Shown here: in pieces, positions 1 through 26,096 of the stretch
Position numbering within the stretch: position 1 is the stretch's first letter
How the letters are laid out: each line of letters opens with the position of its first letter
Assembly: GCA_934432885.1 (NCBI GenBank)
Contig: CAKRYY010000038.1
Span: 1-27,414, forward strand
Length of the DNA stretch: 27,414 nucleotides
Origin: an uncultured Lachnospiraceae bacterium
GTDB taxonomy: Bacteria > Bacillota > Clostridia > Lachnospirales > Lachnospiraceae
Reading direction: 5' to 3'
The notes under the pieces: model-generated
Seen by the model: only the letters and a program-made list of their open reading frames with translations
Databases searched by the model: none
Told to the model about the DNA's origin: nothing
Translations under genes and position numbers: made by a program

Positions 1-66
1 GATTATTTTTGCAAATTATTCAAAAAGCACTATCATCTTACACCGACTGAATATCGAAAAAAATAA
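1..66 (+). CDS. AraC-family regulator, C-terminal end (partial)
   Basis: Only the last 21 codons are inside the window, read in frame 1 to a TAA at 64-66. They give DYFCKLFKKHYHLTPTEYRK-like sequence. This matches the final helix of an AraC/XylS DNA-binding domain, where the family has a FxxxFKKxxGxTPxxYR pattern. Such proteins are DNA-binding transcription regulators in the cytoplasm. The ligand and the targets cannot be told because the sensor domain lies outside. The family call rests on this short signature alone but the pattern is characteristic. Confidence 0.75.
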   Translation, partial: DYFCKLFKKHYHLTPTEYRKK

Positions 67-92
67 AGATTATATTGCGAACGCAATTCATC

Positions 93-14549: not shown

Positions 14550-14699
14550 CTAATTATACAGAGAGATGCCAAAACTGCATTTCCGGTAAATCTTGTAGCC
14601 CAGCGTACCAAGTAAAGATACGACGACATAGAGGCTGGATAAGATACCTGCAAGTCCTCCTACAATGATAATAAGCCAAAGTCCGATACTGATTTCCAT
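14550..14699 (-). CDS. 49-residue single-helix membrane protein
   Basis: A small protein beginning MEISIGLWLIIIVGGLAGIL. Residues about 5-33 form one long hydrophobic segment and possibly a second short one (SLYVVVSLLGTLGY), followed by the basic tail KIYRKCSFGISLYN. GAGGAAAAGAGA lies just upstream of the ATG. The coding sequence overlaps the 3' end of the larger membrane-protein gene by 40 nt in another frame, so coupling is likely. A small hairpin TACAGG-CATTG-CCTGTA (14504-14520) lies beyond the stop. I do not recognise the family. Intact codons, hydrophobic profile and RBS make a real gene likely, but nothing shows the function. Confidence 0.6.
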   Translation of the reverse strand: MEISIGLWLIIIVGGLAGILSSLYVVVSLLGTLGYKIYRKCSFGISLYN

Positions 14700-15235
14700 A
14701 TTCTCTTTTCCTCACATTCTATAAATTTGTTTACTGTACAATGAGAGTTAAGAGAACGCTTCCTTCCGTCCATATCCTGCATAAAAAAGATTAAAAACGG
14801 CGCTCTGTAAATATGACGGCTGTCGTGAAGCAGAAGCAGACTTTCACTGGATGCCGCATAAACTGACAGAAGTGTCAGAATGCAAAACAAAAACAGGAAC
14901 GAACGACGTTCATGTGAAAAAGAACGTAATGACTTCAGTCCTGTGGAGGCAGAAATAGCGCTATGCGTTCCGGTAATGCGTCTTGCAAGAAAGCTGACGG
15001 GCTGTGCCATGCCGGGTGCGCTCAGAAACAAAGTGCCCTTTACGGCAGCAGAGGAAACCGGGTAATCCGGCGCAGAAAAATCCTCTGCGGACGTGGAAAG
15101 CTGCTGCCTATCCTGCAAAAACTGAAGCTGGCGCGCCTCGGACAGAGCGGCGCAGCAATCGTTGCTGACGGTCAAGGTCAGCAAAAGCAGGAAAGCATAA
15201 ATAATGAAATTTCGTAATGTCTTTTGTCTCTGCAT
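14660..15235 (-). CDS. Two-helix membrane protein, DGRKR-tail family (copy 1)
   Basis: A 191-residue protein of unknown function. An N-terminal hydrophobic segment (FIIYAFLLLLTLTVS, about 10-24), a variable middle, and a second hydrophobic block (FLFLFCILTLLSVYAASSES, about 113-132) lead to HDSRH (137-141) and MQDMDGRKR (152-160). The same layout, at nearly the same positions, occurs in the protein at 21866-22360, so they are paralogs. This copy runs about 31 residues past DGRKR, into the next small gene, while the other copy stops two residues after it, suggesting a lost stop codon here. ATG 15235 is preceded by GGGGA; a TTG 15 nt earlier is less likely. It has its own promoter 26 nt upstream, after the ATPase gene. 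Confidence 0.7.
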   Translation of the reverse strand: MQRQKTLRNFIIYAFLLLLTLTVSNDCCAALSEARQLQFLQDRQQLSTSAEDFSAPDYPVSSAAVKGTLFLSAPGMAQPVSFLARRITGTHSAISASTGLKSLRSFSHERRSFLFLFCILTLLSVYAASSESLLLLHDSRHIYRAPFLIFFMQDMDGRKRSLNSHCTVNKFIECEEKRIWKSVSDFGLLSL

Positions 15236-15261
15236 ATCAATTCCCCACAAATATCGCTAAA

Positions 15262-15290
15262 AGTATAACAAAACAGGGGTGGAAATGCAA
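15262..15290 (-). promoter_or_regulatory. Promoter of DGRKR-tail copy 1
   Basis: On the minus strand TTGCAT (plus 15285-15290), 17 nt, TATACT (plus 15262-15267). The bases after it, TTTAGCGATATTTGTGGGGA and then ATTGATATG, resemble those after the TATACT of copy 2. Confidence 0.7.
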
Positions 15291-15293
15291 GAT

Positions 15294-17984
15294 TTAATCC
15301 TTTTCTTTGGAACGAAGCAGCCAGCCTGCAAAGAGGAACAGCTCGTGTGCCAGCAGAGGAAAAGCTGAAAGGAGCATAAGGAAGCTCCATTCTGAAGGCA
15401 GCAGATGGACTGTACCGAAGGCACGAATCAGGAAAGGCACTTCTGTGACTGCAAACTGTAGAAAGAAGCCGATGACAAAAGCCGCAAGCATAAGCTTGTT
15501 TTCGAGATGGTGCATCCGGAAAAAGGAAGTATGGATGCTTCGCATGCCAATCGCATGAAAAAGCTGCGACATGCCAAGCACGGTAAAGGCATAGGTCTGT
15601 GCCCTTGCAACGACTTCTCCCTGCCCTAAAGCGCCTGCAAGAAGAGAAAGGGAGGGAACTACGCCCTGTTTTACAAGCAGCATCCAGGGAAAAGCCAGAA
15701 AAGCACATAGGCTGATGACTGCAATCAGGATGCCATAAAAGCAGGTGCAGAGCAGACCACCGTCTGCAAATAGGCTTTCGCTGCGCTTTCGCGGTGGCAT
15801 ACGCATCAGGGCATTACCATCATTTTGGTCGACTCCAAGCGCCAGTGCCGGAAGGGAGTCTGTAATCAGGTTAATCCAGAGAATGTGGCTGGATTTTAAG
15901 GGTGCGGCGAGAGAGCAGGTCACGGCTAGAAACATGGTAAGCACCTCTCCCAGATTGGAGGAAAGCAGGAAGATGACAGATTTTTTGATGTTTTCATATA
16001 CGCCGCGGCCTTCCCTTACAGCTCCTGCAATGGTTGCAAAGTTATCATCTGTAAGAATGACGTCGGCAGCCTGTCTTGCAACATCGGTGCCATTTAACCC
16101 CATTGCAACGCCGACATCAGCAGCCTTTAAGGAGGGTGCGTCATTAACACCATCTCCTGTCATGGCAACAATATGGCCGGCAGACTGAAAAGCTCTGACA
16201 ATCTGCATTTTCTGCTCTGGGGAAATGCGTGCAAAAATACGCAGTGTATCTATCTGGTCTTTCAGCACCTCATCGGAGAGGGCGGCAAGCTCGCCGCCGG
16301 AAATACACTGTCTGCGGCTCTCTGCAATGCCCAGCTCTCTGGCAATGGCATAGGCGGTGTCAATATGATCCCCTGTAATCATCACAGTGCAGATTCCTGC
16401 CTGCTGGCAGGTGCGTACGGCAGGTGCGGCTTCTGGTCTTGCAGGGTCACGCATGCCAATCAGTCCGACAAAAATGAGGTCATCCTCAAGAGGACCTGCC
16501 TCGTCCTGCTTCATACCGAGCGCAAGGACGCGGAGGGCATCCTTTGACATGGACTGCATAGCACTGCGGATGTCGACAGTGGCGGCAGGGGTAAGCGGAG
16601 AAACCTTTCCCTGCAGCAGAATGTGCCGACAGTGTTTCAGCAGCTCATCAGGCGCACCCTTGGTGTAGCTGACGCTCTGACGCCCCTTCCGGTGCAGCGT
16701 TGTCATCATTTTACGGACAGAATCAAAGGGCAGCTCCTGGATTCTGGGCATGGAACGTTCCAGGGCTTCCCGGCAGAAGCCATGCCTGGCAGAAAGCTTC
16801 AGAAGCGCAAGCTCGGTAGGGTCGCCCATGCCCTGACCAGTTTCAGATTCAAAAGCAGCGTCATTACATAAGGTTATGCCTGCCAGCAAATCAAAATGAG
16901 AATTGTGTGAAAGTGACTCCGCAGGCAGAAGCGAGCCGTCACAGAAGGCGGCAACTGCATACATTTTATTCTGCGTCAGCGTTCCTGTTTTATCGGAGCA
17001 GACAACGCTGACAGCGCCGAGCGTTTCTACGGAAGGAAGCCTGCGGATAATGGTGTTGACCCTTACCATACGGGTGACGCTGAGCGCGAGACAGATGGTA
17101 ACGATTGCGGGCAGCCCCTCTGGCACAGCAGCTACTGCAAGGGAGATGGCGGTAATCAGCATGTCGAAAAGATTGCGGTGCTGCAAAACACCGATGAGAA
17201 AGAGAGCGGCGCAGAGCAGCAGGGAAAGGATGCTCAGCATGGAGCCAAGCTCGCCCAGCCGCTTTTGCAGGGGCGTCGGCGCTTCCTTTGCATCCTGAAT
17301 CAGAGAGGCAATTTTGCCAATCTGAGTCTGCAAGCCGGTAGCAGTTACGATTCCCTGTCCGCGTCCATAGGTTACAATGGTTGACATATATGCCATATTG
17401 GTACGGTCGCCGAGTGGAATCTGCTGCGCATCTGCACCGGCCCCCGGCGTAAGCGGTGCGGTATTTTTTTCAGCAGGAAGTGCTTCGCCGGTCAGGGCGG
17501 ATTCATCAATTTTCAGGCTTTCCGCCTCCGTCAGACGCAGGTCCGCAGGAATGAGGCAGCCTGCTTCCAGACAGATAAGGTCGCCTGTGACAAGCTCGCT
17601 GGCGGGAATCTGCATCTGCCTGCCGTCACGGATAACGATGGCGTGGGGACTGGAAAGCCTCTTGAGAGAGTCCAGCGCTTTTTGCGCTTTGCCCTCCTGT
17701 ACCAGACCGATTGCCGCATTCATCAGAACAACAAAAAGGATGATGACGGTATCGCTGACCTCACCAAGCAGCAGGGATACTGCAGCAGCAGCGAGCAGTA
17801 CATAGATGAGCGGGTCACAGAGTTGCTCGAGAAATTTTGCCCACAGAGGCCCTGGGGCAGCCTCCGGCAGTTCATTTCTGCCGTCCTTTTGCAACCTGCG
17901 TTTTGCTTCTTCCTGGGAAATGCCACGTTTTGCATCAGTTTTACATTCCATGCACAGCGCCTGTATGCTTTTTTGTTCAAACAT
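15294..17984 (-). CDS. P-type cation ATPase, probably calcium-type (P2A)
   Basis: An 896-residue membrane pump that hydrolyses ATP to move a cation, probably Ca2+ export. In order: the cation-ATPase N-terminal domain (1-70); the actuator with TGEALP (165-170); membrane helix 4 PEGLP (288-292), diagnostic of the SERCA/PMCA-like branch; the phosphorylation site DKTGTLT with Asp331; the nucleotide domain with [16 protein letters not shown] and [18 protein letters not shown]; then the C-terminal six helices with the NLGEVL and [15 protein letters not shown] ion-site motifs. All catalytic residues are intact. The length is normal for bacterial Ca2+ ATPases such as YloB/LMCA1. AAGGA precedes the ATG. 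A separate promoter separates it from the following small membrane protein. Mn2+ or another divalent ion is an alternative substrate. Confidence 0.93.
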
Positions 17985-18215
17985 AGTCGTTCCATCCTTT
18001 CTGATTCTTGTACAACCTTATGCCTGTCAATGTTTAAATATGATTGCAGAATAGGAAAGCCTGCGCTGTTTATGTCTTTTTTGGGTCTTTTTGGGTATAA
18101 TTTCTGCCATTCCCTTGAAAGCGTGGAAAAAAGAAAATAAGATAATCATAGTGAAATGATTCTGCGGATCAATAAAGGCAAAGGATAAAAACGGAAAACG
18201 AATGGGAGGAAGAAA

Positions 18216-18800
18216 ATGAAAAAAAGAATTATCGGTATTATGATGGCACTGCTTTTGTGCACAGCAAATGTATCGATGGGAATTGCGGATACCACGATTG
18301 TTTCAGAGGCGCATTCCGGAAGGACAGACGCAAACGGCGGACACAGGGATAATAAGAATAAGAGCGGTCTTGGCCCATATCATTATCACTGCGGCGGCAA
18401 CCCTGCACATTTGCATGAGGGTGGTATTTGCCCTTATGCCGGAGGCGTGCAGACACCCGCACAGGAGGTGATAATACAGCCCGTACCGGAGCAGGCAGAT
18501 GGTACATCGGCGGTTTTTGCAGCGGATGCAGCTGCAATCGAATCTGTGATATATAACACCGCTTTTTATGCGGCAGCAAATCCTGATGTTGTGCAGCTGG
18601 TCGGAACGGATGCACAGGCATTGTATCAGCATTTTGTGACCTCGGGCATGGCGGAGGGACGACAGGGAGCTGCGACCTTTAATGTGCAGGTCTACATAGC
18701 TTCCAATCCAGACCTTGCAGCAGTGCTTGGAAATGATTTGCCGGCATATTATAACCATTATTTATTGCAGGGGCAGTTCGAGGGCAGGAGAGCATATTAA
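18216..18800 (+). CDS. Secreted YHYH-motif protein with two C-terminal repeats
   Basis: A 194-residue exported protein. Residues 1-24 are a signal peptide (KKRIIGIMMALLLCTANVSM, then GIA). Next comes a YHYH-type block: GRTDANGGHRDNKNKSGLGP, YHYHCGGNPAHLHEGGICPY (YHYH at 55-58), rich in His and Cys and probably metal-binding. An Ala/Pro/Gln linker follows, then two repeats of about 40 residues: FYAAANPDVVQLVGTDAQAL, YQHFVTSGMAEGRQ and VYIASNPDLAAVLGNDLPAY, YNHYLLQGQFEGRR. These NPD...YxHYxxxGxxEGR units recur in secreted proteins of gut Clostridia. RBS GGGAGGA. It is divergent from the ATPase gene. The role is unknown; a cell-surface function is suggested. Confidence 0.85.
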   Translation: MKKRIIGIMMALLLCTANVSMGIADTTIVSEAHSGRTDANGGHRDNKNKSGLGPYHYHCGGNPAHLHEGGICPYAGGVQTPAQEVIIQPVPEQADGTSAVFAADAAAIESVIYNTAFYAAANPDVVQLVGTDAQALYQHFVTSGMAEGRQGAATFNVQVYIASNPDLAAVLGNDLPAYYNHYLLQGQFEGRRAY

Positions 18801-18901
18801 GTTAAAAAACTGTTAAGAAATCACAAAATAAGACGATATATAATGCGAAAGCTATGGAGAGCATTTTATTTTTCAGGAAGAAGAATAAAGTGCTTTTCTG
18901 C

Positions 18902-18933
18902 ATAATAGGAAATTCCTCTGAATTTCCTATTAT
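18902..18933. repeat. Perfect 14-bp inverted repeat
   Basis: ATAATAGGAAATTC (18902-18915), loop CTCT, GAATTTCCTATTAT (18920-18933). No T-run follows on either strand, so it is not a standard terminator, though it sits about 100 bases after the YHYH gene. It may stabilise the transcript end or act as a protein site. The rest of the gap to 18999 shows only a short TGCGC/GCGCA pair near 18944-18960. Confidence 0.6.
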
Positions 18934-18999
18934 ACAAAAATAAGATGCGCAATGGACGCGCACTTCATTTTAAAATTTATTTCACAGGAGGGGCATTGT

Positions 19000-19647
19000 A
19001 TGCAGACAGTAACAAATGGAAGCTGGCAGGAAGCCTTTCATCAGTACAGGGATGAAATTTTGACGAAAATCCGTAAAGGCGATACAGAGCAGTCGATTGC
19101 AATCGGCGGCGGAGAATTTACACAGACCCAGTGGAACAGGGCTTTAAAGAATATAGATGAGCAGCTTGAAGATATCAAGGAAGAACAGGCGCAGCGCCTT
19201 GCAAAAAATGCAAAGGAGCAGGCGGAGGATGCACTCGCCCAGAAGGCGGTGCAGCGAAATGAGGCGGCAAAGGTGATGCAGGCGGCTTTTGGAAACCGCA
19301 GTCTGGAGGAAAGCATGCGGGAAGTTGGAAAAACGCCATATTCTGAGCTGGCAAAAGACGGAGAAATCACGTATAATGGAATTACCTTTGTGTGCGATGA
19401 GAGAACGAACAGCATTTGTCTTGGAGATGTAAGCGACCCGAAGGATACGCTGGTAATTCCACTTGAAAACGGCGGAAGCCTGAAGGTAAACAGGAATAAT
19501 CTGGATGAACTGCAAAGGGCGATTGGCATGTTTTCGCCGGAGGACATCAATCGAATTCTGAATGCTATCGCAAAGGACAAGAAAGCAAGAGAAATGCAGA
19601 TGGAGCTGGAAGAAGAAAAGAATGATCCAAAACAGATTGAAGACTGA
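19000..19647 (+). CDS. Charged cytoplasmic protein of unknown function
   Basis: A 215-residue soluble protein with no membrane segment or signal. The start ATG 19000 has AGGAGGGG at 18986-18993; an in-frame ATG at 18952 has none. Residues 10-60 resemble an opening block (WQEAFHQYRDEILTKIRKGD, then IAIGGGEFTQTQWNRALKNI) followed by a long Glu/Lys/Ala-rich helix (DEQLEDIKEEQAQRLAKNAK, EQAEDALAQKAVQRNEAAKV) that looks like a coiled coil. The second half, GEITYNGITFVCDERTNSIC to PLENGGSLKVNRNNLDEL, resembles a small beta module, and the C-terminus is helical and acidic. I do not recognise the family. It overlaps the DUF2752 gene by 26 nt. Confidence 0.75.
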   Translation: MQTVTNGSWQEAFHQYRDEILTKIRKGDTEQSIAIGGGEFTQTQWNRALKNIDEQLEDIKEEQAQRLAKNAKEQAEDALAQKAVQRNEAAKVMQAAFGNRSLEESMREVGKTPYSELAKDGEITYNGITFVCDERTNSICLGDVSDPKDTLVIPLENGGSLKVNRNNLDELQRAIGMFSPEDINRILNAIAKDKKAREMQMELEEEKNDPKQIED

Positions 19648-20095
19648 CATAAAAGAGTTTGCGCCTGCGGGAATTGCACTGATTATTTATAATCTGCTGA
19701 CACGGTATTTTTTTCATGCGTTTTGTCCTATGGTAATAATAACGGGACTTCCGTGTCCGGGCTGTGGAATGACGCGGGCGGTATGGTATCTTATGACAGG
19801 ACAGGTAAGCCGTTCTTTCGCCATGCACCCGCTGGTGGGATTATGGCTTTTCCTGATTTTTGGATGGGCATTTGCAAGGTATGTTAAGGGACGCAGCGGC
19901 TGGGAGGGACGCAGAAGATTCCAGCTCTGCGTTATCTTTGTGCTTACGGCGACGGTGCTTTTGTATATTTACAGAATGTATACCATTTTTCCGGGCAGAG
20001 CGCCAATGACGTATACGGGAGACAATATACTGGAGCACTGGATTCCACGATACCGCCAAAGCATTTTGCATCTTTTTAAGTTGTGGCATCCCTAA
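19622..20095 (+). CDS. DUF2752 membrane protein
   Basis: A 157-residue integral membrane protein with the DUF2752 signature LPCPGCGMTRAVW (CPGCGMTRA at about 45-53), followed by a His in AMHPLVGLWLFLIFGW. Membrane segments are about 16-33, 66-86 and 98-116. DUF2752 proteins are small, widespread and of unknown role; the paired Cys may bind a metal or be redox active. The start ATG 19622 lies inside the end of the upstream gene with only a weak GA-rich RBS, which suggests translational coupling. The upstream charged protein is its probable partner. The call rests on the CPGCGMTR motif, which is distinctive. Confidence 0.85.
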   Translation: MIQNRLKTDIKEFAPAGIALIIYNLLTRYFFHAFCPMVIITGLPCPGCGMTRAVWYLMTGQVSRSFAMHPLVGLWLFLIFGWAFARYVKGRSGWEGRRRFQLCVIFVLTATVLLYIYRMYTIFPGRAPMTYTGDNILEHWIPRYRQSILHLFKLWHP

Positions 20096-20105
20096 GCGCA
20101 TGATA

Positions 20106-20167
20106 TAATGAGCCTCAAAGGAAAGCAAGCGCCTCTGAAAGAGGCATTTGCTTTCCTGGGCTCATTA
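20106..20167. repeat. Long imperfect hairpin element
   Basis: TAATGAGCC (20106-20114) pairs with GGCTCATTA (20159-20167), AGGAAAGCAA (20119-20128) with TTGCTTTCCT (20148-20157), and GCCTCT (20131-20136) with AGAGGC (20140-20145) around GAA. The 62-nt structure is followed by a second hairpin TCCTGC-GAA-GCAGGA around 20179-20193. It lies 10 bases after the DUF2752 stop. There is no T-run, so it looks like a repeated palindromic element more than a terminator. Confidence 0.75.
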
Positions 20168-20207
20168 ACGAACGAATGTCCTGCGAAGCAGGATGAAGAG
20201 CGCGGCA

Positions 20208-20318
20208 GCGCGGATTCGTGAGTTCACAAAACAAAGCGCGGATTCGTGAGTTCACAAAACAAAGCGCGGATTCGTGAGTTCGCAAGACAAAGAGTGTGGG
20301 TTTGTGAGTTTACAAAAC
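20208..20318. repeat. 28-bp tandem repeat, about four copies
   Basis: Units of 28 bp begin GCGCGGATTCGTGAGTTCAC and end AAAACAAA. Copies 1 (20208-20235) and 2 (20236-20263) are identical, copy 3 (20264-20291) differs at two bases, and copy 4 (20292-20318) is diverged and one base short. Each copy contains the small palindrome GTGA-GT-TCAC (GTGA-GT-TCGC in copy 3). ACGAAT upstream near 20172-20177 can pair with ATTCGT of the first unit, enclosing two hairpins. Confidence 0.9.
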
Positions 20319-20368
20319 GCGTTTTTCCAGATTCGCGCATGAAAAAAAGGAAGTAAAGAGGAGAAGAA

Positions 20369-20722
20369 ATGGACAACAATCAGATGTATCAGCAGAACCA
20401 GACCACCCAGCAGGAGAATTCACAGTATTCCTCCTATTATGAAGCACCGGTGCAGCCGCAGATTCAGATGCCGGAGCCGCAGCAGGAATTAGAAGAACCG
20501 GTATCCTTGGGGGAATGGATGATTTCCATGCTGCTTATGTGTATCCCCTGTGTAAACATTATTTTGATGTTTATCTGGGCATTCAGCAGCACGGAAAAAA
20601 AGAGCAAGTCCAATTATTTTAAGGCAGCTTTAATCTGGATGGGTATCAGCATTGTGCTGGGCATCATTATGACGGTGCTTATGTCCGTAGGAATGATAGC
20701 GGCAATGAGCTCCATGCAGTAA
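20369..20722 (+). CDS. Small membrane protein with Gln-rich N-terminus
   Basis: A 117-residue protein. Residues 1-45 are hydrophilic and rich in Gln, Asn, Pro and Glu (MDNNQMYQQNQTTQQENSQY, then QPQIQMPEPQQELEE). Then come two membrane helices (about 50-68: WMISMLLMCIPCVNIILMFI; and about 84-112: ALIWMGISIVLGIIMTVLMS) joined by SSTEKKSKSNYFKA. This layout (low-complexity N-terminus, LGxWMxxxLLxxIPxVNIIL, W-F, then NYFKA) is common in small Clostridia membrane proteins; no function is known. RBS GAGGAG at the start. It converges with the methyltransferase gene 11 bases away. Confidence 0.8.
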   Translation: MDNNQMYQQNQTTQQENSQYSSYYEAPVQPQIQMPEPQQELEEPVSLGEWMISMLLMCIPCVNIILMFIWAFSSTEKKSKSNYFKAALIWMGISIVLGIIMTVLMSVGMIAAMSSMQ

Positions 20723-20733
20723 AGCCGTGGAGG

Positions 20734-21594
20734 CTATCGGCACCAGCGTCCAGAAGCTCCGCAGGGAAGAATGAGTCCGCTGCCTGTTACCGGCAGACCG
20801 ATTTCCTCGGATTCGACATGGCCGCCGAACTTTTTGACGATAACGCTGTTTATCATATAGGACAGAACGGCTGGCTGCAGTCCTGTCGTATAGGAGTTGA
20901 TGAGATAAAACAGTGCATCCTTTGACAGAATCTGCGCGGTGAGTTCGATAAAGGGGTAGATGGAATCTTCAATTTTCCAGATTTCCCCTTTTGGACCTCT
21001 GCCATAAGAGGGCGGATCCAGAATAATGCCGTCGTATGTATTGCCGCGCCGGATTTCTCTTTCTACAAATTTGACACAGTCATCCACAAGCCAGCGGATA
21101 GGAGCGCCTGAAAGACCGGAAGCGGCGGCATTTTCCTTTGCCCAGCCGACCATGCCCTTTGAGGCATCTACATGCACTACTTCGGCGCCTGCCTTTGCAG
21201 CGGCAAGTGTCGCGCCGCCCGTATAGGCGAAAAGATTCAAAACCCGGACGGGCTTTTTAGCTGCTTTGATTTTTTCGGAAAACCAGTTCCAGTTGACAGC
21301 CTGTTCAGGAAAAAGACCGGTATGCTTGAATTTAAAAGGCTTTAAATGAAATTGCAGGTCGCGGTAATGAATCGTCCATTCATCGGGCATACGGAAAAAT
21401 TCCCAGTCTCCGCCGCCCTTGCTGCTGCGGTGATAATGACCGTTTGGCTTCTTCCAGCGAGGGTCCTTTTTGGGCGTATTCCAGATGACCTGCGGATCCG
21501 GGCGAATCAGAATATAATCCCCCCAACGCTCCAGCTTTTCTCCGCCGGAGGTATCCAGCACTTCATAGTCTTTCCAATTGTCTGCAATCCACAT
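20734..21594 (-). CDS. Class I SAM-dependent methyltransferase (RlmI-like)
   Basis: A 286-residue S-adenosylmethionine methyltransferase, related to the rRNA methyltransferases of the RlmI/RlmK/YccW type. Motif I is VLNLFAYTGGATLAAAKAGA (about 118-137), with the acidic motif II residue in HVDAS, motif IV DDCVKF and the catalytic LDPPSYGRG (about 192-200), the NPPY-like loop of nucleic-acid methyltransferases. The front third (EVLDTSGGEKLERWGDYILI, then RPDPQVIW) is the family's usual start, so I favour ATG at 21594 with GGGAG upstream; an upstream in-frame start at 21684 would add 30 residues without an RBS. The target is probably rRNA but is not proven. Confidence 0.82.
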   Translation of the reverse strand: MWIADNWKDYEVLDTSGGEKLERWGDYILIRPDPQVIWNTPKKDPRWKKPNGHYHRSSKGGGDWEFFRMPDEWTIHYRDLQFHLKPFKFKHTGLFPEQAVNWNWFSEKIKAAKKPVRVLNLFAYTGGATLAAAKAGAEVVHVDASKGMVGWAKENAAASGLSGAPIRWLVDDCVKFVEREIRRGNTYDGIILDPPSYGRGPKGEIWKIEDSIYPFIELTAQILSKDALFYLINSYTTGLQPAVLSYMINSVIVKKFGGHVESEEIGLPVTGSGLILPCGASGRWCR

Positions 21595-21766
21595 GGCATA
21601 AGTCTCCCAATTCTTTGTTTCTCGCGCAGCCATCAGGGCTTCTGCGTTATATATCCTATAACATAGCATATTATGATTGACCATACAAGCGGATTTGCCA
21701 ACGGCGCAATAGAACAGTAAAACAATACAGATGCATCTGCCAGATAAAACAATTCGTTTTGCATGA

Positions 21767-21792
21767 TGGAAACGTTGGCGGAAACGTTATCA
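21767..21792. promoter_or_regulatory. Two overlapping cre-like (CcpA/LacI-type) sites
   Basis: TGGAAACGTTGGCG (21767-21780) and CGGAAACGTTATCA (21779-21792) each fit the cre consensus WTGNAANCGNWNNCW at nearly all fixed positions. They repeat GGAAACGTT exactly 12 bp apart. Relative to the predicted start at about 21847 they centre at -73.5 and -61.5, upstream of the -35. That position is usual for CcpA activation; the regulator is not proven. Confidence 0.6.
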
Positions 21793-21811
21793 AAAAAACA
21801 GACAGGAAACC

Positions 21812-21840
21812 TTGTGCTTCGACCGTTATTTTGGTATACT
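21812..21840 (+). promoter_or_regulatory. Promoter of DGRKR-tail copy 2
   Basis: TTGTGC (21812-21817), 17 nt and TATACT (21835-21840). The following leader CGTCATAATACTTATGGGGG, then ATTTTATG, matches that of copy 1 in layout and several bases. A TTG start proposed for the coding frame at 21812 is this -35 box. Confidence 0.7.
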
Positions 21841-21865
21841 CGTCATAATACTTATGGGGGATTTT

Positions 21866-22360
21866 ATGCGGGAACATAGAGCGGCACTGCGAAAAGGGAT
21901 GATTTTTGCACTCCTGCTTCTGATGACAGTAAGCGGAGTCTGCGGACGCTGTATCGAGATGCCACAGGGACAACAGGGGAGTTGTCAGGAACAGATACAG
22001 GCACAGTGGGAGCAGTCTGCCCTGATACAGGAATATGCAGTGACAATGGGTCTGCGGCAGAAGGAGCCGATGACGATCACAATCAGCGACGGTTTTCTGA
22101 TTCGCAGTGTAGAGCTGTGGAGAGATCTGGCAAAAGAGCTGCGCACGACAAATGTTTTCCGTGAAATGACAGGGAGCGTCCGCCTTTCAGCGGTAAGAGG
22201 ACGCACAAATTTCTTATTTTTCTGCATTTTATCTGCGCTGACAGCATACGCTGATTTCAGTATATGTCTTTATGTATTACATGACAGTCGTCATGTGGGT
22301 AAAACCCCGTTTACAATTTTATTTATGCAGGATACAGACGGCCGAAAACGAATTTTCTGA
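21866..22360 (+). CDS. Two-helix membrane protein, DGRKR-tail family (copy 2)
   Basis: A 164-residue protein of unknown function, paralogous to the protein encoded at 14660-15235. An N-terminal hydrophobic helix (about 8-24: LRKGMIFALLLLMTVSGVC) is followed by a Gln/Glu-rich middle (residues about 30-110, probably outside the membrane). The second hydrophobic block is FLFFCILSALTAYADFSICL (about 116-135), leading to HDSRH (139-143), PFTILF and MQDTDGRKR (154-162), then only IF. RBS GGGGGA is 4 nt before ATG 21866. The gene lies 72 nt before cstA with no convincing terminator between, so the two may be co-transcribed from the promoter with cre-like sites. Confidence 0.75.
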   Translation: MREHRAALRKGMIFALLLLMTVSGVCGRCIEMPQGQQGSCQEQIQAQWEQSALIQEYAVTMGLRQKEPMTITISDGFLIRSVELWRDLAKELRTTNVFREMTGSVRLSAVRGRTNFLFFCILSALTAYADFSICLYVLHDSRHVGKTPFTILFMQDTDGRKRIF

Positions 22361-22432
22361 CTTTGGGCAAAATGCCCGATATTTCTCAGGAAGGAAGTAC
22401 AAAAGAGAGTATTTTGAAGGAGGAAAATAGGA

Positions 22433-23890
22433 ATGGTTACATTTATTATCGGCCTTGTGATTCTGTTCGCAGGGGCGGCTCTTTATGGCAGATTCTGCGA
22501 AAAGGTTTTTGGACCTGATGACAGAAAGACACCGGCTTACACAAAACAGGACGGTGTAGACTATGTACCGATGAAGGGCTGGAAAAACAGTCTGATTAAC
22601 TTACTTAACATTGCGGGAACAGGCCCGATTCTTGGCCCGATTCAGGGAATTTTATTTGGTCCGATTGCATTCATCACGATTCCTATCGGAAATATTATCG
22701 GTGGTGCAATGCACGATTATTTTTCCGGAATGATTTGTCTGCGTGATGGCGGTACCCAGATGCCGGATATGGTCCGCAAGTACAGCAATAAGGGTGTTTA
22801 CTCTGTATATCAGGTATTCTGCAGCCTGCTGCTCTTACTGGTTGGTGCGGTATTTATCTATACGCCGGGTGATATTGCAGCAAAGCAGGTATTTGGCTTT
22901 GACGGTGCGGCAACCTCTGTTTCTACATGGATTATTTACGGTGTTATTTTCCTGTATTATCTGATTGCGACAGTATTCCCGATTGATGCGATTATCGGAA
23001 GAATCTATCCGGTATTCGGTGCAATCCTGCTGTTCTCTGCAATCGGCGTATTTATTGGCATTTTTGTACAGGGCTATCCTTTGGCAGAGATTTGGAATAC
23101 ATGGAATGGACCGGTTGTTGCTTATGGCGATTATTTTGCATCCAACCACTTTATTCCGGTATTCTTTATTACGGTAGCCTGCGGAATCCTTTCCGGCTTC
23201 CACTCTACACAGACTGCAATCATTTCCCGTACAGTAAAGAGCGAGAAGCAGGGACGTATGACATTCTACAATATGATGGTTATAGAAGGCTTCATTGCTA
23301 TGGTATGGGCAGCTGGCGCAATGGGCGTATACAATCTTGGCCTGCAGGCAGCGGATGCGTCTCTTGCAACAGATACGATTGGTGTAGTATGTAAGCATCT
23401 GCTGGGAAGCGTTGGCGGTATTATTGCACTGCTTGGCGTTATCGTACTTCCGATTACCTCCGGCGATACAGCGCTGCGTGCACTGCGTCTGACAATCGCC
23501 GATTCTTTCCATATCGACCAGACCTCTGTAAAGAAGAGACTTGGTCTTTCTGTAATTATCTTTGCACTTGTTGCAGTGATTTTAGTATTTGCAAAGATGA
23601 ACAGCAATGGCTTTAACGTTTTATGGCGTTACTTTGCATGGTCAAACCAGACCTTGGCGCTGTTCGCATTTCTTGCGATTTCCGTTTGGATGTTTATGAA
23701 TGGAAAAGCAAAATATGCGTGGATGCCATTGATTCCGGGTGGCTGGTATGCATTTATTACAGTGACCTATATTGCAAACGCAAAAATCGGATTCAATATT
23801 CCCTGGCTGGGTGCGTATATCATCGGTATTGTTGCTGCAGCTGCTTATGTGGGCATCGTACTGTGGTATGCAAAGAAACGCTCTGCATAG
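22433..23890 (+). CDS. cstA: CstA-family carbon starvation / pyruvate-peptide transporter
   Basis: A 485-residue polytopic membrane protein of the CstA (BtsT) family, which takes up peptides or pyruvate when preferred carbon is scarce. It is the short form found in Clostridia; E. coli CstA is about 700 residues. Characteristic blocks are DGVDYVPMKGWKNSL, NIAGTGPILGPIQGILFGPI, IGNIIGGAMHDYFSGM and GDTALRALRLTIADSF. About 13 membrane segments are expected. RBS GAAGGAGG lies just before ATG. It follows the DGRKR-tail gene and ends at a strong terminator. Control by carbon supply is supported by the cre-like sites upstream. Family and symbol are firm, the exact substrate is not. Confidence 0.92.
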   Translation: MVTFIIGLVILFAGAALYGRFCEKVFGPDDRKTPAYTKQDGVDYVPMKGWKNSLINLLNIAGTGPILGPIQGILFGPIAFITIPIGNIIGGAMHDYFSGMICLRDGGTQMPDMVRKYSNKGVYSVYQVFCSLLLLLVGAVFIYTPGDIAAKQVFGFDGAATSVSTWIIYGVIFLYYLIATVFPIDAIIGRIYPVFGAILLFSAIGVFIGIFVQGYPLAEIWNTWNGPVVAYGDYFASNHFIPVFFITVACGILSGFHSTQTAIISRTVKSEKQGRMTFYNMMVIEGFIAMVWAAGAMGVYNLGLQAADASLATDTIGVVCKHLLGSVGGIIALLGVIVLPITSGDTALRALRLTIADSFHIDQTSVKKRLGLSVIIFALVAVILVFAKMNSNGFNVLWRYFAWSNQTLALFAFLAISVWMFMNGKAKYAWMPLIPGGWYAFITVTYIANAKIGFNIPWLGAYIIGIVAAAAYVGIVLWYAKKRSA

Positions 23891-24035: not shown

Positions 24036-25568
24036 ATGACGGGTTCGATTATCTGGATACTTACGGCCTTTGCGATTTATCTGCTTTTTATGGTCGTGAT
24101 TGGCTTTGTATGTGCAAAACAAAATGAAAATGCAGAGGATTATTTTCTCGGTGGAAGAAAATTAAGCGGCGCGGTAGCAGCGCTTTCTGCACAGGCGTCT
24201 GACATGAGCGGCTGGCTGCTGATGGGACTTCCGGGTTCTATTTATGCAATGGGAACAGGACAGTCGTGGATTGCCGTGGGTCTTTTCCTGGGAACGGTCT
24301 GCAACTGGATGCTGATTTCCAAGCGTCTGCGCCGGTATACAATACGTGCGAACAATGCGCTGACGCTGCCGACATACTTTGAAAACCGGTTCCATGATAA
24401 GAACAGAGTGCTTTTGCTTATCTCTTCTATAACAATTATCATTTTCTTTCTGGTTTATACAGCGTCTGCACTTGCAGCGGGCGGCAAGCTGTTTACCTCT
24501 GTATTCAGTATAGACTATAAGATTGCGCTGACGATTGGCGCAGCGGTTATCCTGGTTTATACCTTTATGGGCGGATTCATGGCGGTATGCGTAACGGACT
24601 TCGTACAGGGTATGCTGATGCTGGTTGGTCTGCTTGCGGTTCCGATTATTGCTTATGCTGCCATGCGCGGCAATATTGCAGGCACGCTGGAAGCCAGTGG
24701 CGTTGCGGGTGGTGCATCCGCTTTCTTAAGCTTTACACAGAACGGCGAGAGACCTTATACGGCGATTGAAATTATTTCCCAGCTTGCATGGGGACTTGGC
24801 TACTGCGGTATGCCGCATATTCTGGTACGCTTTATGGCGGTACGCGATGAAAAGGAATTAAAGAAATCCAAAACGATTGCAATCGTATGGGTTGCGCTTT
24901 CTCTTGCGTTTGCCTGTGCAATCGGTGTAATTGGACGTGCATATCTGTATCCGGGACTTTTGACGGACGGTGCAGAGGAGAAGGTATTTATTGAAATGAT
25001 TATCAAGATGTTTACGGTAGACTATAATCTGCCGATTATTGGAGGCCTGTTCTTATGCGGTATTCTGGCAGCGATTATGTCAACGGCGGATTCTCAGCTC
25101 CTTGTTACCGCATCCAGTATGGCTGAGGACATCTTCAGAGGCATTATCAAAAAGGATGCAGATGATAAGACTGTGCTCCGGCTGAGCCGCTGCACTGTGC
25201 TTGTGATTGCCGTGCTGGCATATATCATTGCATTGAATCCAAACAGCTCCATTATGGGACTGGTATCTAACGCATGGGCGGGACTTGGCTCTGCCTTTGG
25301 TCCGACGGTAGTGCTTTCCCTGTTCTGGAAGCGGACGAATTTCCAGGGTGCGGTAGCAGGTATTGCAACAGGAGCGCTTGCGGTTATCATATGGGATTAT
25401 ATTCCGCTTGTTGGAGGACAGACGCTTGGCGCATCTACAGGCCTGTATTCTCTGGTGGTTGGCTTTTTATTGAGTATGGCAGTAATCGTTGTGGTAAGTC
25501 TGCTGACACCGGCGCCGTCCGCAGAGATTTTACAGGAGTTTGAGGATGCCAAGAACGGAAATATTTAA
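24036..25568 (+). CDS. putP: Sodium/proline symporter
   Basis: A 510-residue sodium:solute symporter (SSS family) of PutP type that imports L-proline together with Na+. The family blocks are DYFLGGRKLSGAVAALSAQA and SDMSGWLLMGLPGSIYAMG (helix 2 unwound region), SISKRL-like ISKRLRRYTIRANNALTLPT, YTFMGGFMAVCVTDFVQGML, and GILAAIMSTADSQLLVTASS (helix 8, with the Na+-binding Ser/Thr). Length and about 13 helices are standard. RBS AAAGGAG. It has its own promoter after the cstA terminator. Proline and peptides are both amino-acid fuel, so a nutritional theme with cstA is plausible. Proline specificity is by family. Confidence 0.93.
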   Translation: MTGSIIWILTAFAIYLLFMVVIGFVCAKQNENAEDYFLGGRKLSGAVAALSAQASDMSGWLLMGLPGSIYAMGTGQSWIAVGLFLGTVCNWMLISKRLRRYTIRANNALTLPTYFENRFHDKNRVLLLISSITIIIFFLVYTASALAAGGKLFTSVFSIDYKIALTIGAAVILVYTFMGGFMAVCVTDFVQGMLMLVGLLAVPIIAYAAMRGNIAGTLEASGVAGGASAFLSFTQNGERPYTAIEIISQLAWGLGYCGMPHILVRFMAVRDEKELKKSKTIAIVWVALSLAFACAIGVIGRAYLYPGLLTDGAEEKVFIEMIIKMFTVDYNLPIIGGLFLCGILAAIMSTADSQLLVTASSMAEDIFRGIIKKDADDKTVLRLSRCTVLVIAVLAYIIALNPNSSIMGLVSNAWAGLGSAFGPTVVLSLFWKRTNFQGAVAGIATGALAVIIWDYIPLVGGQTLGASTGLYSLVVGFLLSMAVIVVVSLLTPAPSAEILQEFEDAKNGNI

Positions 25569-25865: not shown

Positions 25866-26096
25866 TGCTGTGGCATGATAGCGTTGAAGCGTGAGGTTGC
25901 TGCCCGCGTGGCAGGTTTTCCGTGGAGCGAATGTCAAGTTAGGAAACTGACGACAAGTCACTGTACAAGCAACGGAGGTCTACAAAAAAGTAGAAACGAC
26001 GTGTGTAGATTCAAAAGAGGACACACACGGGAGAGTGTACAGTCACCGCTTGTCGTACTTAAGTTCAAAAAGTGCGAAAAGGAGGCGACTTTTTTT
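25866..26096 (+). ncRNA. Structured 5' leader of the S10 ribosomal protein operon
   Basis: The untranslated leader has several pairings. A GNRA hairpin is TGTC (25932-25935) AA, GTTAG-GAAA-CTGAC (25938-25951), GACA (25952-25955). An outer helix GTTGCT (25896-25901) / AGCAAC (25968-25973) can enclose it. Also present are CTGCC/GGCAG (25900-25914), TCTAC/GTAGA (25979-25994) and CGTGTGT (26000-26006) / ACACACG (26023-26029). A long-range helix ACGACAAG (25950-25957) / CTTGTCGT (26049-26056) uses bases of the GNRA hairpin, so the two are mutually exclusive. The RBS AAGGAGG is at about 26079-26085. Autoregulation by a ribosomal protein is a reasonable inference; the family was not recognised. Confidence 0.65.

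Follow-up and report, generated by a model that had tools for sequence, protein, structure and literature searches.

The locus raises the question what is done by two small membrane proteins that have their C-terminal end in common and of which the genes each lie beside a large transporter gene. The window, by which the whole analysed stretch of 27,414 nucleotides is meant, stems from an uncultured Lachnospiraceae bacterium (GenBank assembly GCA_934432885.1, contig CAKRYY010000038.1). The first gene (14660..15235, minus strand) encodes P0001 of 191 amino acids and the second (21866..22360, plus strand) P0002 of 164 amino acids; coordinates and frame were confirmed for both. P0001 is built of an N-terminal membrane segment, a variable middle, a second hydrophobic segment, MQDMDGRK and a tail of 32 residues, and P0002 ends in MQDTDGRK followed by a tail of 3 residues. 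The codons for these presumed arrest motifs are found at 14759..14782 (minus) and 22325..22348 (plus), respectively. BLASTP of the pair gave 32% identity over 167 columns, with an E of 1e-20 for that single comparison. The alignment was best at the end, with FLFxFCIL, HDSRH (residues 137-141 and 139-143), PFxIxF and MQDxDGRKR (152-160 and 154-162), which confirms the homology and the common C-terminal block that had been claimed in a preliminary description. The similarity is beyond chance, since profile searches that start from the pair recover a whole family with this end.

At its 3' end, the P0001 gene overlaps by 40 nt with a separate gene of 49 codons, small49 (14550..14699, minus), which encodes a 49-aa single-helix membrane protein (P0009, ...YKIYRKCSFGISLYN). 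This protein had no Pfam match at E 0.01, and its gene also follows the leader in three related loci, at 73-88% identity. Upstream of the P0001 gene lies that of a P-type ATPase (15294..17984, minus), the closest relatives with a solved structure being Ca2+-transporting ATPases (Listeria lmo0841). The P0002 gene is followed by cstA (22433..23890, plus; Pfam CstA), with a sodium:solute symporter gene (24036-25568) further downstream. The ATPase gene and cstA do adjoin the two genes, as was described before, but the P0001 gene precedes the 49-aa gene and not that of the ATPase. At the end of the window an S10-Clostridia ribosomal protein leader (RF03136) was observed at 25876-25956 (plus), ahead of ribosomal protein genes; its presence places the window, too, in Clostridia.

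A possible promoter was read by eye ahead of each gene. For leader 1 it consists of TTGCAT, 17 nt and TATACT (15262..15290, minus) and starts directly past the stop codon of the ATPase gene; for leader 2 it consists of TTGTGC, 17 nt and TATACT (21812..21840, plus). The promoters had been presented as matching. TATACT is indeed present at 15267-15262 (minus) and 21835-21840 (plus), each 17 nt past the -35 box, but these boxes are weak (3/6 matches each, by eye) and neither promoter was listed by a consensus scan of both window regions at 9/12, so that the correspondence is only suggestive. The GGGGA close to the ATG is present at both genes. Across the family described below, a -10 box was found ahead of the leaders in 36 of 46 loci, where 29.8 were expected from shuffles.

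P0001 and P0002 matched 0 Pfam or NCBIfam families, even at E 1, and seven further members gave only matches far below the cut-off in Pfam-A and NCBIfam; the absence of a named family therefore holds for the members scanned. Close relatives were few, with 4 proteins for P0001 and 3 for P0002 at E up to 1 in a collection of 5.8 billion proteins. A scan of genome contigs yielded 384 stretches that matched a pattern and 1 confirmed locus. The first profile search gave matches with E up to 0.01 in 13 of 195 related genomes, of which five turned out to contain genuine relatives after the frames had been read. Weak profile matches without the end motif (e.g. L009-L016 and most of those below about E 1e-4) were judged on their reading frames to be chance. 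Successive alignments led to a larger family in Clostridia that ends in (I/V)(I/L)x[YF]I[HQ]xxDGxK, of which MQDxDGRK is the window version. At E up to 0.01, a profile search of the protein collection retrieved 73 proteins, and the sole source name among them was 'hypothetical protein [Hespellia sp.]', a Lachnospiraceae genus. A DNA pattern for [YF]I[HQ]xxDGxK matched 108 of 397 genomes, some of them by chance, as its backward control also matches in many genomes. The matches were fetched in part, so that the member counts are lower bounds. The filter was passed by 54 frames, from which L129, L136 and L156 were dropped by eye as implausible genes. Of the remaining 51 members, two are those of the window, five came from the near relatives and 44 from 39 of the 397 genomes, with two members each in G111, G206, G305, G370 and G378.

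Little beyond the last 12 residues or so, (I/V)(I/L)x[YF]I[HQ]xxDGxK, is common to the 51 members, and their middle parts do not align. Counting back from the K, the information amounts to 2.2-4.3 bits at positions -12, -11, -9 to -7 and -4 to -1; it is lower at -10, -6 and -5, and about 0.3-1.0 bits at almost all positions up to -40 (one reaches 1.7). The filter demanded the D, the G, a K/R at the end and an approximate [YFW][IMLV][HQRNKS], which means that those columns are partly conserved by data selection; I/V/L at -12 and -11 was not demanded. The median length from the first frame residue to the K is 136. A hydrophobic stretch occurs within the first 70 residues in 50 of the 51 members, both window proteins included, and the conserved C-terminal sequence is situated more than 30 residues past the localization signal. 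The tail behind the K counts 0 to 41 residues, and six members stop directly at the K.

The members are short proteins encoded directly upstream, and on the same strand, of mostly membrane-protein genes. Next-gene starts were called by Shine-Dalgarno sequence and frame, after some pairings (see below) had already been seen by eye, and were obtained for 46 of the 51 members (L138, L168, L093, L098 and L146 have no called start). L020 and L025 were dropped as near-duplicates from the sliding-window, access, hairpin-count, control-pair and target-count analyses, which leaves 44 loci. With the same lenient cut-off, a membrane segment was detected in 41 of 44 targets (all except L052, L118 and L162) against 23 of 42 upstream neighbours. 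The target classes were assigned with Pfam on representatives and by eye for the rest. The first target is a protein of 47-51 aa with one helix, ending in KIYRKxKYGxSLYD or similar, in 12 of 44 loci, a WWxENG-like micro-protein in 19, a CitMHS/ArsB-type permease in four, SecDF in two and another small membrane protein in two. A Na/H exchanger, CstA, pyruvate kinase, a truncated pyruvate-kinase-like frame and a response regulator occur once each. L146, without a called start, is a third secD/secDF locus besides L149 and L151; the Pfam confirmation rests on L149.

The unnamed 47-51 aa protein was seen in the window and in L001, L017, L018, L022, L055, L065, L095, L096, L097, L104 and L139. In 8 of these 12 loci (the window, L001, L017, L018, L055, L095, L104 and L139) it adjoins genes for Ca2+-ATPase-like proteins or a Na/Ca exchanger, and L021, L017 and L018 repeat the window arrangement, in which the leader stands between the Ca2+-ATPase-like gene and the 49-aa gene. 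It is possibly a sarcolipin-like partner. A Na/Ca exchanger gene is located downstream of micro-proteins in seven loci (L054, L055, L095, L100, L104, L139 and L154); in others this place is taken by a Na/H exchanger, a Na/Pi cotransporter, YitT, a VCA0040-like protein or pyruvate kinase. Micro-proteins of the WWxENG type, with one helix, were found in L023, L026, L053, L056, L058, L060, L067, L073, L094, L100-L103, L141, L148, L154, L163, L167 and L171, where their genes precede those of the Na/Ca exchanger, Na/Pi, YitT or pyruvate kinase; the one protein of this type that was scanned received no Pfam or NCBIfam name. A third type of micro-protein, with a DKxLPD-like end, is encoded by the third gene in L100 and L154, and is the first target in L054 and the second in L051. 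In L054, L100 and L154 it precedes Na/Ca exchanger genes.

The bases directly past the DGxK codons are complementary to the next Shine-Dalgarno region, as was first noticed by eye, also at both window loci. In 46 loci the duplex of the 24 nt past the motif with positions -22..+6 of the next start was calculated. The mean energy was -10.80 kcal/mol for own pairs versus -7.68 kcal/mol for mismatched pairs (z -9.2), a value reached in 0 of 20,000 permutations. Because all Shine-Dalgarno regions are alike, mismatched pairs are a strict control. The own partner ranked first of 46 in 10 loci and among the top six in 25. When a window of 18 nt was slid from -75 to +93, z was -7.9 at -3..15 and -7.4 at 3..21, with weaker values in the flanking windows (-3.6 at -9..9 and -3.5 at 9..27). 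The pairing is thus confined to about -9..+27 around the end of the motif; elsewhere nothing comparable was observed (z -2.3 at 57..75, and some positive values). Control gene pairs of the same loci gave z +1.1 (n=31). Shuffled bases gave the Shine-Dalgarno sequence a higher predicted access than the native ones in 31 of 44 loci (p 0.0018), and with +0..+15 removed the native access rose, likewise in 31 of 44 (p 0.0033), the mean effects being modest (0.378 and 0.487). The six tail-less members alone showed no significant pairing (z -1.1). Pairing was poor in L159 (-1.8) and L101 (-2.4), and in the pair L055/L139 the own partner was not the best one. In the P0001-type group of four related loci the own partner was best in 4/4 rows, although their sequences differ. 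The present analysis thus shows the family, its end, its place and the specific pairing.

At the first window locus, the 24 nt past the DGRK codons extend over 14735..14758 (minus). Within them, 14750-14757 together with the bases that follow form base pairs with the small49 Shine-Dalgarno region (GAGG; 14700..14721, minus), which is bracketed by a stem in the fold. The duplex energy is -17.0 kcal/mol; 16 of 2000 shuffles and 0 of 45 other Shine-Dalgarno regions were as good. The fold reaches -14.6 kcal/mol (z -2.13), and removal of +0..+15 raised the predicted access from 0.37 to 0.70. At the second locus the corresponding 24 nt are located at 22349..22372 (plus). In the fold (-23.8 kcal/mol, z -3.07), 22352-22358 and 22361-22363 pair with 22417-22419 and 22422-22428 of the cstA Shine-Dalgarno region (AAGGAGG; 22411..22432, plus), so that AAG and GGAAAAT are closed around the Shine-Dalgarno sequence. 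Here the duplex energy is -11.2 kcal/mol, 31 of 2000 shuffles were as good, 5 of 45 other regions pair equally well and the predicted access stayed flat on removal of +0..+15 (0.34 to 0.35). The stem over the next Shine-Dalgarno sequence is therefore strong for P0001 and moderate for P0002, and P0002 taken alone is the weaker case, because other regions match its stretch and the access does not rise.

The conservation of the last 12 residues or so, the pairing behind the motif and a published group of leaders that stall ribosomes at D-G-x-K argue together for a leader with an effect in cis on the gene that follows it. We therefore give a probability of roughly 0.78 to the reading that both window genes are cis-acting arrest-peptide leaders of the SecM/MifM/VemP kind, with a putative stall and a putative sensed signal. 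The N-terminal segment would target the nascent chain to the membrane. Upon slow insertion or pulling, the conserved end (I/V)(I/L)x[YF]I[HQ]xxDGxK may hold the ribosome at or just past the DGxK codons. The roughly 20 nt past these codons would base-pair with the Shine-Dalgarno region ahead of the next gene, and the resulting stem would keep this gene shut, until a ribosome halted at DGxK covers those bases, upon which the stem would open and the next gene be translated. We infer both the stalling of the peptide and the opening of the stem by the stall. In this manner P0001 would govern the expression of small49, downstream of the Ca2+-ATPase-like gene, and P0002 that of cstA. Judging from the targets, candidates for what relieves the arrest are membrane insertion, the capacity of Sec or YidC, or an ion gradient. 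As most members, including those of the window, have residues past the K, the stall would have to take place in elongation.

Plain translational coupling, in which passing ribosomes open the stem and the end motif does not stall but is kept for another reason, we regard as unlikely. The stem alone would suffice for it, and the leaders of L149, L162, L023 and P0001 end inside or beyond the next Shine-Dalgarno region. Coupling would, however, work with a stem anywhere near the end of the leader, whereas the pairing tracks DGxK and not the stop: in the members with the stop codon six or more residues past the motif (n=11), z was -2.2 when aligned on the motif and +0.5 when aligned on the stop. 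Moreover, it accounts neither for the conservation of D-G-x-K and the adjacent residues in a protein that otherwise drifts nor for their match to a published stalling motif.

A role as accessory or regulatory subunit in membrane transport had been considered conceivable in the preliminary description. The association with transporter genes is real, also for homologues in other genomes, and together with the two hydrophobic segments these neighbours could speak for stable subunits of the adjacent transporters. Such subunits are nevertheless quite improbable: the neighbours are mutually unrelated (Na_Ca_ex, CitMHS, Na_H_Exchanger, CstA, SecDF, pyruvate kinase and a response regulator), the proteins that would serve them all have only the last 12 residues or so in common, with middle parts that fail to align, and a subunit predicts no RNA pairing behind the motif. 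The subunit part of the proposal is thus unsupported, and the link with transporters is probably one of cis regulation.

Least probable, and very much so, is transcription attenuation, in which the stalled ribosome would determine whether transcription ends at a terminator hairpin or continues into the next gene. Of the 44 spaces that separate the motif from the next gene, 14 contain a terminator-like hairpin with a weak T run, where 0.2 were expected from shuffles, and CCTATG...CATAGG is common to many of them; the other 30, by that definition those of both window loci among them, have no hairpin, and the Shine-Dalgarno pairing is the simpler common factor. Pairing and attenuation may both be active in some loci. 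A separate terminator scan lists one hairpin, at 22363-22379, in the space between leader 2 and cstA. The hairpin CCTATG...CATAGG followed by TTTATTT or similar was seen between the leader and the next gene in L055, L139, L053, L056, L058, L095, L100 and L154, and matched no Rfam family. A known riboswitch in the spaces between leader and target was discarded, as Rfam gave only one tRNA in 18 leader loci and only the S10-Clostridia leader in the window.

The arrest-leader reading is best compared with uDF_DGMK-stop, described in passages of Fujiwara et al. (2024; PMC10987492) as six leaders of Clostridia with an N-terminal localization signal, all upstream of secDF. According to the same passages, their D-G-M-K end stalls ribosomes in vitro, with more than half of the product as peptidyl-tRNA when B. 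subtilis ribosomes are used, residues -4 to -1 and the stop codon directly after the K matter for the stalling, and the last residue of the peptide is Lys139. The present family is likewise one of Clostridia, with a small protein that carries an N-terminal signal and ends in D-G-x-K upstream of a membrane-protein gene; the length is similar (Lys139 versus a median of 136 to the K) and three members precede secDF. A common function is likely, because the end is the same and because of these three loci. In the comparison, which was made with the published text, several differences appear. The targets are of many types instead of secDF only, those of the window being small49 and cstA; x is mostly K, R or Q and not M; and, where uDF_DGMK-stop needs its stop right after the K, only 6 of 51 members end there and the DGRK tails of the window count 3 and 32 residues.

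With SecM-secA, MifM-yidC2 and VemP-secDF2, as far as described in passages of PMC10987492 and PMC13183943, the leaders have in common that they are targeted to the membrane, that a conserved C-terminal arrest site (putative here) is present, and that a stem hides the next Shine-Dalgarno sequence, begins under the halted ribosome and is opened by it, the halt being a presumed one for the present leaders. The end motif is unrelated, and export genes are less frequent among the targets than genes for ion transporters or very small membrane proteins. CliM (uC_KYxIW) of Clostridium, located before yidC2, resembles the DGxK leaders in that it belongs to Clostridia and has an N-terminal TM segment, an arrest site near its end and a Shine-Dalgarno stem, but according to passages of PMC13183943 it has the motif KYxIW and monitors YidC. 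Arrest peptides of the RAPP/RGPP type precede genes of diverse function, also outside protein localization, as stated in passages of PMC12992588; these carry a RAPP-type motif instead of DGxK and occur in Streptomyces and others, and the DGxK class is not mentioned in the passages searched. The literature searched, with most subscription journals and supplements outside it, contained no DGxK leaders tied to ion transporters or micro-proteins. What would be new is the use of the arrest-leader trick, known from bacterial protein-export genes, for ion transporters and very small membrane proteins.

Arrest peptides have been described chiefly as monitors of Sec and YidC, and the D-G-M-K class from no more than six sequences, all of them upstream of secDF. 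If the arrest-leader reading is right, the DGxK class would be far larger in Clostridia, being present in at least 39 of 397 sampled genomes, and would control ion transporters and unstudied micro-proteins. The pairing right behind the motif provides a rule for finding the regulated gene and more of such leaders, and the DGxK leaders could serve to test which signal is sensed by a nascent chain targeted to the membrane. A wider proposal, to which we give slightly less than even odds, is that the one stalling motif (I/V)IxYIHxxDGxK is a plug-in sensor in Lachnospiraceae: dozens of leaders with different targeting parts would report failing membrane insertion or ion gradients on the ribosome, and would activate not only SecDF but also transporters for Ca2+, Na+, H+ and phosphate, CstA, and uncharacterised one-helix micro-proteins of two or three families. 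If this were true, arrest peptides would form a general circuit of ion homeostasis and not only a monitor of protein export.
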